Below are positions 34,320-37,068 of a stretch of 64,000 bases of DNA, piece after piece. A program made the position numbers and the translations under genes. Source of the DNA: Desulfococcus multivorans (lineage in GTDB: Bacteria; Desulfobacterota; Desulfobacteria; Desulfobacterales; Desulfococcaceae). Location: assembly GCF_001854245.1 (NCBI RefSeq), contig NZ_CP015381.1, forward strand, positions 336,001 through 400,000. Reading direction: 5' to 3'. The stretch's first letter is position 1; every line of letters starts with the position of its first letter. The notes beneath the pieces are model-generated. The model did not search any database, was not told the origin of the DNA, and saw only the letters and a list, made by a program, of their open reading frames with translations.

Positions 34320-35711
34320 TCAGGGCTTGCCAAAAACAGCCGGGGGCTTCTGGGTATCGCCGACGGCGTTGGGGAAATCCTTGGCGACGTGAGCCTTCTG
34401 GCCGGTTTCGATGAGGTGGTTCGCCTCCTCCATGAAAATGTTATAGCGCAGCTTGACCTCGTAGAAGCCGTGCCACCAGGCGTAGTCCGGGGCCATCATC
34501 ATGGTGCCCATGCGCGCCCGGCGTCCTTCGTGGTGCCAGAGTTCATAGAACTCCACCTCCAGCCGCTCGTCGAAAAACCGGGTCGCGTCGAGCAGCCCTT
34601 TTTCGTTGAGCTCGTCGAACTTCTGCTTGGCCGGCTTGTAGTAAACCTCGTTGTACTCCTCCACAGCCTTGTCGAACCCATTGTAGAAATCCTCGATCCA
34701 GGATTCGCCGTGGCAGGCGCTGCAGATATTTTTCATTTTCTGCCGCTCCGCCTGCCAGTCGGTCCCGGAGGGGAATGCCGCGAAATCCTGGGGGCGCACC
34801 GTCAGGGGGGCCTGGGTTTCCCAGGAGAGCCGCTGGGTCACGTCGTGGCTGGTGGGTTCCTTGCCGGAGCCGGACATGTGGCAGGCCGCGCATGTGGGCG
34901 CGCGATAGTCGAGGCCGGGGGTCCATGTGCCGCCGGCGGCGTCGAAGTTATATTCGTCTTTATAGGCGTGGTAGATGGTGCCGTGTTTGGATTCCTCGTA
35001 GATTTCGATCTGGGGATGATCCGGCCCCAGGTGGCACTGGTCGCAGGCCTCGGGCATTCGGGCTTCGCCCACGGAGAAGCGGTGGCGGGTGTGGCAGGAG
35101 GTGCAGGATCCCTTGCTGCCGTCGGGGTTGATCCGCCCCACGCCGACGTTGGGCCATGTGGCCGGATCGATCTTGCCGGCATCGTCGATTGTGACCACGG
35201 TTCCGTGACAGTTGTAGCAGCCGGTCTTGCGCTCGTTGTCGGAGTTCATGCCCTTGTTGAGCCAGGGATCGATCTTCCACATGATCTCGATGGTGTTGGC
35301 GTGCTTGGACTTGCTGTACTGGAGGGCCTCGTCGGGGTGGCATCGGGAGCAGTCTTTGGGCGTCACGATGGCGGCGACGGGCATCTTGTACTTGGCCTCG
35401 CCCCACGGCATGTCGGAGCGCCCGTAGTATTTTTCGTGATCCTGGGCGATGTCCCGGTCGCCGGGCTGCACCAGGTGACAGTCGAGACAGGTGATGTTGG
35501 CGTTGGCGTGGCGGCTTTTGGCCCAGTCGGCGAAGACGCCCGGGGTGGTGGCCCGGTGGCATTCGATGCATGCCTGAGCCTCGGGGGGAACGCTGCGTTC
35601 GATGCGGTACTCCTTGGCCTTGGGGAAATTGGGCTGTTCGGCCGACGCGCCGGTGAAAAACAGGCCGACGACCAGCAGACCGGTGGTGAGAAACAGCAAT
35701 GATCGCCTCAT
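34320..35711 (-). CDS. Octahaem c-type cytochrome, hydroxylamine oxidoreductase (HAO)-like
   Basis: The 463-residue exported protein has a signal peptide ending near ASAEQ and exactly eight CxxCH haem sites, with first Cys at residues 48, 75, 121, 165, 203, 223, 274 and 330. A helical C-terminal region follows, with MMMAPDYAWWHGFYEVK. Haem number, spacing and length fit the HAO/octahaem nitrite-hydroxylamine reductase superfamily. The NapC/NrfH-type gene upstream suggests electrons come from quinol, so reduction of nitrite or hydroxylamine is more likely than oxidation. AAGGAG precedes ATG 35711. Whether the haem-crosslinking Tyr of true HAO is present cannot be judged without alignment. Confidence 0.88.
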   Translation of the reverse strand: MRRSLLFLTTGLLVVGLFFTGASAEQPNFPKAKEYRIERSVPPEAQACIECHRATTPGVFADWAKSRHANANITCLDCHLVQPGDRDIAQDHEKYYGRSDMPWGEAKYKMPVAAIVTPKDCSRCHPDEALQYSKSKHANTIEIMWKIDPWLNKGMNSDNERKTGCYNCHGTVVTIDDAGKIDPATWPNVGVGRINPDGSKGSCTSCHTRHRFSVGEARMPEACDQCHLGPDHPQIEIYEESKHGTIYHAYKDEYNFDAAGGTWTPGLDYRAPTCAACHMSGSGKEPTSHDVTQRLSWETQAPLTVRPQDFAAFPSGTDWQAERQKMKNICSACHGESWIEDFYNGFDKAVEEYNEVYYKPAKQKFDELNEKGLLDATRFFDERLEVEFYELWHHEGRRARMGTMMMAPDYAWWHGFYEVKLRYNIFMEEANHLIETGQKAHVAKDFPNAVGDTQKPPAVFGKP

Positions 35712-35815
35712 GGTGACTGCTCCTTTCTGTTGCCGGTTAAAACAAGCGTGATACGGTTATAACTGAACGATTTTCAAGTGGTTGCAGAGGGTGAAAATCC
35801 GATATCGGCCTCGGG

Positions 35816-36379
35816 TCAAAGCTGCCGCATTCCCTTGGCCTGATACGGTATGATCCGGCTCTGGCGAAACATGATCACGCCCCTTTCGGTGTGGACCAGA
35901 TCATAATGGCAGTCGACACATTTCTTTTCATACCCGGGCCGGGCATGGACCACCGACCGATGGGCCAGCATGGCCCCGCGCTGGGTGGGCATGTACAGCA
36001 GATTGCGGTGACATTTCTGGCACTGATCATTGTCAAAGGCGGCATAGGCGGCTTCCCGGGCCTTTTCGCGGTCGTATTCGTCCTGGAGAAAATGGGCCGC
36101 GACATCCTTGATGCCGTGATAGGTCTTGGAAAAAAAGAAGTTGAAGGTGTCCTGGGGGGCGGGGAGATGGCAGTCCATACAGTCCACAACCACTCCGGCG
36201 GCGTTGTTGGTGTGGGTGGAGGAGCGCCATGCCGTCACCGCCGGCTTGATTTCGTGACACGAGGCGCAGAATTCCGGCGTGGAGGTGCGCACCATGGTGT
36301 AGTAAGTGATGCTGAAAAGGGGAAAGGCGATGGCGATGCCGACACCCACGAGGATTGCCGAAATGATGAATTTTTTCAT
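35816..36379 (-). CDS. NapC/NirT/NrfH-family tetrahaem cytochrome c (quinol dehydrogenase)
   Basis: The 187-residue protein has a single N-terminal membrane anchor (residues 4-26) and four CxxCH sites at Cys 38, 67, 120 and 154. The first follows TSTPEFCASCHE, as in NapC/NrfH. Such proteins oxidise menaquinol and pass electrons to periplasmic partners. The partner here is the octahaem protein 104 bp downstream. The ribosome site GGAGG lies before ATG 36379. The preceding TetR gene ends 27 bp upstream, so all three genes should be one transcript. Confidence 0.92.
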   Translation of the reverse strand: MKKFIISAILVGVGIAIAFPLFSITYYTMVRTSTPEFCASCHEIKPAVTAWRSSTHTNNAAGVVVDCMDCHLPAPQDTFNFFFSKTYHGIKDVAAHFLQDEYDREKAREAAYAAFDNDQCQKCHRNLLYMPTQRGAMLAHRSVVHARPGYEKKCVDCHYDLVHTERGVIMFRQSRIIPYQAKGMRQL

Positions 36380-36406
36380 GCTTACCTCCCTGGATTGGTT
36401 TTCGAA

Positions 36407-37015
36407 TCACGGTCCGCAACGAATCTGAAGGGAATCGGAAAAGAGTCGCCAGGCGCTTCGGGAATGCCGCATCAGATCAAACTCTCCTCCGCTGATGTGC
36501 CAGATGACGGCGGCCGGCTGGATCATGCCGAAAAAGGCGACGGCAATATCCCGTGCGGAGATATCGCCGCGGATCGTGCCTTCAGCTTGCCCGTGGCTCA
36601 CGATCGACTCCACGCGCCCGAGCACGTCACGGATAATGTCGTAGAGTTCCTCCTGCTTTTCCGGCATACCGCCGAGGACCTCCTCGGAAAAGACGATCCT
36701 GGGGATCGCGCTGTTGCCGGCAATGAGCGCGATATGACGGTTGAAGAGCCGGTGAAGCATGTCGACGGCATCGATCTCCAGTCGCTCCACCGCCTTGAAA
36801 TGGGCGTCCAGACGCGATCGAATCAGCCGCAACACCGACGTGACGATGTCGCCTTTGTTTCTGAAGTGCCGATACACGGCCGAGGGTACGATGCCCACCT
36901 TTGCCGCAACCGCGGCGACACTGAGACGACGGGTCCCCCCTGTGCGAACGATGTCCAACGCCGCTTCAACGATCTGATCCTGGCGAATCTCGGTGACGAA
37001 TCGTCGTTTTGTCAT
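36407..37015 (-). CDS. TetR-family transcriptional regulator
   Basis: The 202-residue regulator starts MTKRRFVTEIRQDQIVEAAL, with the helix-turn-helix SVAAVAAKVGIVPSAVYRHF at about residues 35-54. The ligand domain is unclassified. It leads the napC-octahaem operon. A perfect palindrome overlaps its -10 box 12 bp before the start codon, which predicts autoregulation of the whole operon. The open frame continues upstream of 37015 but would run through the promoter. No clear Shine-Dalgarno precedes the ATG. Confidence 0.9.
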   Translation of the reverse strand: MTKRRFVTEIRQDQIVEAALDIVRTGGTRRLSVAAVAAKVGIVPSAVYRHFRNKGDIVTSVLRLIRSRLDAHFKAVERLEIDAVDMLHRLFNRHIALIAGNSAIPRIVFSEEVLGGMPEKQEELYDIIRDVLGRVESIVSHGQAEGTIRGDISARDIAVAFFGMIQPAAVIWHISGGEFDLMRHSRSAWRLFSDSLQIRCGP

Positions 37016-37026
37016 GGGAAAAATAG

Positions 37027-37042
37027 GTGAATAATTATTCAC
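37027..37042. promoter_or_regulatory. Perfect 16-bp palindromic operator of the TetR-napC-octahaem operon
   Basis: GTGAATAATTATTCAC is fully self-complementary, overlaps the predicted -10 hexamer and lies just upstream of the tetR ATG. This is the expected place for a TetR dimer to block transcription. Confidence 0.7.
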
Positions 37043-37068
37043 ATAAAAAAGATCGTCGTGGCTGTCAA
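37040..37068 (-). promoter_or_regulatory. sigma70-type promoter of the TetR-napC-octahaem operon
   Basis: Reading the minus strand, consensus TTGACA (37068-37063) is followed after 17 bases by TATGTG (37045-37040), which runs into the palindromic operator. The start codon is about 25 bases further on, implying a very short leader. Confidence 0.65.

Follow-up and report, generated by a model that had tools for sequence, protein, structure and literature searches.

The 64,000-nucleotide window analysed here (positions 336,001 to 400,000 of contig NZ_CP015381.1, assembly GCF_001854245.1) comes from Desulfococcus multivorans and contains, at 34320-37068, three genes that run in the same direction on the minus strand: tetR, then napC, then occ, the last encoding an octahaem cytochrome c (OCC).

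A TetR-led operon for a quinol dehydrogenase and an octahaem cytochrome

The three genes are separated by gaps of 27 bp (tetR-napC) and 104 bp (napC-occ) by open reading frame coordinates (Table 1). An earlier note on this DNA had described an operon of a TetR regulator, a NapC-type tetrahaem protein and an octahaem HAO-like protein, and the Pfam matches and haem motifs agree with that description. Specifically, the leading product matches PF00440 (37.3 bits, cut-off 24), the second has four CxxCH motifs and matches PF03264 NapC/NirT (123.2 bits, cut-off 24.1), and the third has eight CxxCH motifs and matches PF13447 (108.4 bits, cut-off 21.9), so that NapC belongs to the NapC/NirT/NrfH quinol dehydrogenases and OCC to the HAO-like octahaem family. 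NapC is not NrfH proper, scoring 75.7 bits against TIGR03153, below the cut-off of 134.2.

The same note had read a TTGACA-N17-TATGTG promoter with a perfect 16-bp palindrome upstream of tetR, and both are there. The palindrome, GTGAATAATTATTCAC, is the sole match in the whole window at up to three mismatches (0.07 expected). Its placement over the −10 element was correct in that the two overlap, but the overlap is confined to the last three −10 bases and the rest extends across the likely start site. This is a usual place for a repressor, and a TetR_N domain combined with a palindrome overlapping the gene's own promoter marks the product as a putative TetR repressor. A generic promoter scan of the window misses this promoter, since the scan's −10 rule does not admit TATGTG.

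Table 1. Features of the tetR-napC-occ operon, in window coordinates
Feature	Position	Strand	Description
OCC (octahaem HAO-fold cytochrome c)	34320..35711	-	463 aa, eight CxxCH, Sec-type N-terminus (by eye), W412 at cross-linking tyrosine position (weak alignment)
NapC/NirT-family tetrahaem quinol dehydrogenase	35816..36379	-	187 aa, PF03264, hydrophobic N-terminus (by eye)
TetR-family regulator, leading gene of the operon	36407..37015	-	202 aa, PF00440
Predicted operator, perfect 16-bp palindrome GTGAAT-N4-ATTCAC	37027..37042	.	GTGAATAATTATTCAC
−10 element TATGTG	37040..37045	-	last three bases overlapped by operator
−35 element TTGACA	37063..37068	-	17 nt upstream of −10

OCC has the HAO fold and a tryptophan aligned with the cross-linking tyrosine

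By sequence, the best solved relative of OCC is 4QO5 (168.7 bits, E 1.9e-48; 206.6 bits by profile; identity 27-33%), followed by 6H5L (87.4 bits) and HAO. We take 4QO5 to be the octahaem cytochrome of Ignicoccus hospitalis, the entry itself being named a hypothetical multiheme protein; it has no tyrosine at the aligned C-terminal place. A first structural model of OCC, built from 15 sequences, was discarded (pLDDT 49.8); the model from a 30-sequence alignment reached pLDDT 78.2, the best of five models (lowest 58.0). Foldseek matches this model to 4QO5, 6H5L and 1FGJ with probability 1.00. Its Z-scores are 28.4 with 4QO5, 23.7 with 6H5L (the Kuenenia reducing HAO), 22.4-22.8 with Nitrosomonas HAO and about 11 with NrfA, and across nine HAO-family entries they run from about 21 to 28; the predicted fold is therefore that of HAO.

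The residue that we take to be the cross-linking tyrosine of the oxidative enzymes, HAO and hydrazine dehydrogenase (HDH), lies near the C-terminus, and the absence of this tyrosine was to support reduction in the earlier note's proposal. In OCC a tryptophan, W412, stands at the aligned place: it pairs with a tryptophan of 6H5L and, via 6H5L, with HDH Y462 and the tyrosine of the anammox hydroxylamine oxidase (HOX), in low-scoring local matches that are anchored by an equally spaced aspartate and glycine (D409, G415). The surrounding stretch, APDYAWWHG, is almost invariant across 15 sequences, and all 15 carry tryptophan at this position. A tryptophan at the tyrosine position with a methionine eight residues earlier is the reported signature of Campylobacterota Hao (PMC8940962; this and the other papers are cited from excerpts of their text). 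OCC fits this signature twice, with M404/W412 and with M405/W413; residue 404 is methionine in D. multivorans and alanine in several relatives. Histidine has been named as the reductive residue (PMC12758564), and H414 lies near W412, so the exact tyrosine column is uncertain. Because the same work also infers an oxidative switch within Desulfobacterota, sequence does not fix the key column.

The D. multivorans genome encodes a second octahaem cytochrome (522 aa, about 3447.4-3449.0 kb), which is IhOCC-like and, at 349 bits, far closer to 4QO5 than the operon OCC is; all five other genomes of the family sample have matches of similar distance.

NapC-OCC pairs recur in Desulfobacterota and rarely occur with NrfA

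A search for OCC relatives returned 51 loci, nearly all from Desulfobacterota or Deltaproteobacteria by title; in 46, occ is immediately preceded by napC. Two of the remaining five (L041, L044) start at a contig end in or at occ, and three (L047, L050, L051) have no NapC match. The only NapC match in the D. multivorans genome is that of the operon. Some of these genes look damaged: one NapC homologue among the 46 (L049:5540-6010) keeps an open frame with its haem motifs lost, and may be a decayed gene or a haem-free variant, and occ is split across two frames in L043 and L046 (Desulfosarcina cetonica draft) and in L066, by sequencing error or decay.

OCC itself is not NrfA, as it scores 14.8 bits against PF02335 (cut-off 24.1) and has no CxxCK motif, and the D. 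multivorans genome has no PF02335 protein. In a sample of 395 genomes of the phylum, 79 match OCC at E 1e-90 and 120 match PF02335 at E 1e-30. NrfA is found in 7 of the 79 genomes with any such OCC match versus 113 of the 316 others (p 9.9e-7), in 3 of 40 with an OCC at least 57% identical versus 117 of 355 (p 4.5e-4), and in none of 32 with an OCC at least 62% identical versus 120 of 363 (p 8.5e-6). These p-values are only indicative because the two identity thresholds were chosen after the list had been seen and the genomes do not count as independent (the 32 fall in 16 families). An exception is one genome in which about 0.7 kb separates an OCC relative (61%) from an NrfA match on the same strand (G123:C39:526-3838).

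Genes for nitrogen-oxide metabolism lie beside many of these pairs. Within the fetched flanks of 53 loci (the 51 OCC loci and two plasmids), Hcp is near OCC in 12, an uncontrolled count that includes a fragment in L023. In five loci (L001, L003, L004, L008, L019) hcp follows occ as the next gene found; in L028 it is immediately upstream, and in L040 it is divergent. The two neighbours examined with NCBIfam were both confirmed as hydroxylamine reductase/Hcp. Crp/Fnr genes occur in 12 OCC loci. Desulfosarcina ovata plasmid Do28_1 has a single island with hcp, FprA, Crp/Fnr, TetR, NapC, OCC, ferredoxin, NorR, qNor and hemerythrin; the D. cetonica locus has much of a similar island, lacking Hcp and FprA in the fetched stretch. 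The D. multivorans genome has two Hcp genes, at 4.114 and 1.814 Mb, far from the operon, and so combines a Hao-like OCC, NapC and Hcp as reverse-HURM does.

In these features the operon resembles Campylobacterota Hao with NapC/CycB (reverse-HURM, Nautilia profundicola), in which an octahaem HAO-like protein without the tyrosine goes with a NapC/NrfH-type quinol dehydrogenase (PMC3701875, PMC8940962). A nitrite-hydroxylamine-ammonium route via Hao/NapC and Hcp has been proposed for Nautilia, an organism without NrfA in which Hcp is the proposed partner (PMC3701875), although Hcp may act on nitric oxide (NO) instead (PMC10949509). Unlike in Nautilia, where the locus tags are far apart (NAMH_0559, NAMH_1280; PMC3701875), napC and occ are contiguous in D. 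multivorans and led by tetR. Kuenenia HAOr (Kustc0457/0458, 6H5L) also has the HAO fold and reduces nitrite without the cross-link (PMC12758564), but scores lower against OCC than 4QO5 does. Compared with the ammonia-forming nitrite reductase NrfHA, the pair has a similar NapC/NrfH-type donor and, presumably, the same periplasmic niche, and differs in the eight CxxCH motifs of OCC. In HAOr the partner in the complex is a small cytochrome, not NapC.

The pairing with NapC, the tryptophan in place of tyrosine, the rarity with NrfA and the frequent Hcp neighbour suggest that OCC is probably a reductive enzyme acting on nitrite or hydroxylamine, which supports the function that the earlier note had proposed.

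A TetR subfamily and its operator

Relatives of the TetR occur in 34 of the 395 genomes, D. multivorans included, and 39 TetR loci were compared: 33 from the phylum search, five OCC loci and the window. Of the 39, 28 have GTGAA-N6-TTCAC no more than 60 bp before tetR, as against 2 of 78,000 simple letter shuffles; 25 of these 28 also have a TTGACA-like hexamer (at least 5 of 6 bases), which in 24 lies 20-24 nt before the palindrome. These results support, at the level of sequence, a link between this TetR and its operator. The four OCC loci with a TetR (58-69% identical in L024, L033 and L046, 33% in L029) all have a palindrome with the same arms upstream, with one mismatch in L024. L029 is unusual in having two sites, one before its tetR and one before a second OCC-like gene that precedes NapC-OCC (L029:3149-7386). 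Searches of open-access papers for the regulator turned up no account of this TetR or its operator.

Nitrogen-oxide genes (NapC/OCC, qNor, Hcp, FprA, hemerythrin) are present in 12 of the 33 TetR windows and in none of 20 control windows placed by hand elsewhere in 20 of the same genomes (one-sided p 0.0013). TetR and an OCC at least 57% identical occur together in 11 of the 395 genomes (34 with TetR, 40 with OCC; p 1.5e-4), and on the TetR tree the OCC-linked members need three label changes versus 8.2 in shuffles, a difference to which near-copies contribute.

The operator also occurs outside the operon. GTGAAT-N4-ATTCAC with perfect arms is found twice in the D. multivorans genome (0.09 expected genome-wide from base composition), once at the operon promoter and once some 260 bp ahead of fprA; TTGACA precedes the palindrome by 20 nt at the operon and by 21 nt at fprA. 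A third site, at 2707474 with one arm base different, lies inside an open frame, which we take for aat, and was put down to chance. Elsewhere, one genome (G339) has a one-mismatch site about 390 bp upstream of FprA, and the two genomes represented by L046 and L024 have no FprA match at E 1e-80. Another (G216) has a perfect site before a ferredoxin-FprA-hemerythrin cluster, with no clear TTGACA on the gene's strand. It also has a site, one base off in one arm and with a TTGACA, some 100 bp before napC and at a distance of 6.5 kb from tetR. FprA, a flavodiiron protein, matches NorV-type flavorubredoxin models below their cut-offs and may be an NO or O2 reductase.

A candidate repressor-controlled nitrogen-oxide response

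We think it fairly probable, taken as a whole, that tetR-napC-occ is an autorepressed operon in which NapC feeds a reductive OCC and TetR is released by nitrogen-oxide stress. NapC would take electrons from menaquinol and hand them to periplasmic OCC, whose active-site haem would reduce nitrite, hydroxylamine or both, and possibly NO; the pair would fill the role that NrfHA has elsewhere in the phylum. TetR would bind GTGAAT-N4-ATTCAC across the −10 element and start site and block its own operon and, in D. multivorans, probably fprA too, until a nitrogen-oxide stress signal releases it. A wider proposal, which we put forward tentatively and see as possible rather than probable, is that an undescribed TetR branch controls a regulon of nitrogen-oxide defence genes (NapC-OCC, FprA, qNor, Hcp, hemerythrin) through this operator without a metal or conserved-cysteine sensor, and that Desulfobacterota with NapC-OCC use it in place of NrfHA, the pair in some cases moving on plasmids.

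Several observations weigh against this interpretation. TetR is present in only 4 of the 51 OCC loci (some contigs end near napC), and therefore the enzyme does not need it. The 60 bp before tetR contain no site in 11 of the 39 loci, and the fprA promoter of a sister species has no operator site. Sixteen of the 33 TetR loci were labelled efflux by hand and some of the 12 nitrogen-oxide loci also have efflux genes; the family is therefore not solely concerned with nitrogen oxides. In the published account of the D. multivorans genome, oxygen tolerance is attributed in part to two rubredoxin oxidoreductases (Roo; PMC5109826), so fprA may point to O2. On the side of the enzyme, the local alignments that define the tyrosine column are weak, Y410, an invariant tyrosine, stands two residues before W412, and one separate switch to the oxidative, tyrosine-bearing form has been inferred within Desulfobacterota (PMC12758564).

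The strongest alternative, although we consider it rather unlikely, concerns the regulator: a general efflux or xenobiotic-type repressor (FadR/AcrR-like) would have been captured by napC-occ, its inducer would be a hydrophobic or acyl compound, and the nearness of nitrogen-oxide genes would reflect shared stress islands. The nearest solved TetRs are 1VI0, which we take to be YsiA/FadR, and 3WHB, a fatty acid regulator (about 57 bits), with TtgR/AcrR following; many members of the subfamily precede HlyD-ABC or RND genes, and efflux-type and nitrogen-oxide-type members share the palindrome. The FadR site resembles TGAAT/ATTCA half-sites, but with a half-site spacing of 8 versus 4 here. On the FadR model NF053878 the TetR scores only 55 bits (cut-off 200), so it is not a FadR, and its neighbours differ; the contrast with the control windows, the other perfect D. 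multivorans site at fprA and the perfect site before the ferredoxin-FprA-hemerythrin cluster also argue against capture of an efflux repressor. Among the 16 TetRs compared there is no conserved cysteine. Because of this, and because the nearest solved TetRs are of FadR and TtgR/AcrR types, direct sensing of NO by an iron-sulfur centre or thiol appears unlikely and a small-molecule ligand more likely. With no conserved cysteine, and with subfamily members also beside efflux pumps, the proposed nitrogen-oxide inducer is unproven.

We judge it improbable that the true electron acceptor of NapC-OCC is something else, such as sulfite, an organic compound or extracellular metal, and that its nitrogen chemistry is incidental. 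Octahaem cytochromes are versatile and the genome has the second, IhOCC-like one, but the structural match of the OCC model to MccA is poor (Z 5.8), and both the Hcp, NorR, qNor and FprA neighbours and the exclusion of NrfA point to nitrogen oxides. That OCC is instead an oxidase of hydroxylamine or another nitrogen compound, passing electrons through NapC into the quinone pool, is very improbable: its predicted fold family does include HAO and HDH, and Y410 lies near the key column, but all 15 aligned sequences have tryptophan at the cross-link position, the host is an anaerobic sulfate reducer, the neighbours are reductases and OCC rarely co-occurs with NrfA.

If the preferred reading of an autorepressed, reductive NapC-OCC operon is true, members of the phylum without NrfA have a quinol-linked octahaem reductase instead, and a simple repressor-operator pair offers a way to find and test nitrogen-oxide responses; this would bear on sediment nitrogen and sulfur cycling and on the control of souring by nitrite. 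Parts of this picture are already published, namely HAO-like genes in Desulfobacterota, mostly with the reductive residue (PMC12758564), and the Hao-NapC-Hcp idea (PMC3701875); the words hydroxylamine, multiheme, NapC and nitric are absent from the main text of the genome paper of D. multivorans DSM 2059 (PMC5109826).

Further features of the NapC-OCC loci

OCC genes are found on plasmids in 3 of 72,556 records; the one from Ruegeria adjoins haoB. The Do28_1 island (L073, NZ_AP021877.1 23969-45279) lies beside a Tn3 transposase and an integrase, and the plasmid is typed mobilizable.

Upstream of napC in 41 loci, no HcpR-type site (TGTGA-N6-TCACA) stands clearly above shuffles (best two mismatches, p about 0.16-0.19), and a swap between TetR and HcpR as regulators is thus unsupported. 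A related motif, TGTTA-N6-TTACA, two mismatches from the HcpR/CRP consensus, recurs 126-182 bp upstream of napC in six loci without TetR (L010, L013, L022, L025, L045, L048), and is perhaps another regulator's site or a trace of shared ancestry.

Three further genes recur near NapC-OCC. A conserved 250-aa protein (MKCPGQD...; L001:10092-10844 and relatives) is found in eight loci and has no Pfam match; several copies are near Hcp or a ferredoxin-like gene. A MobB-family gene is present in seven loci (L010, L013, L016, L038, L042, L044, L045; PF03205 confirmed in L016). Eight loci have a hexapeptide-transferase gene (PF00132, perhaps a serine acetyltransferase; for example L040:8215-10098), accompanied in some by an apparent cysteine synthase gene.

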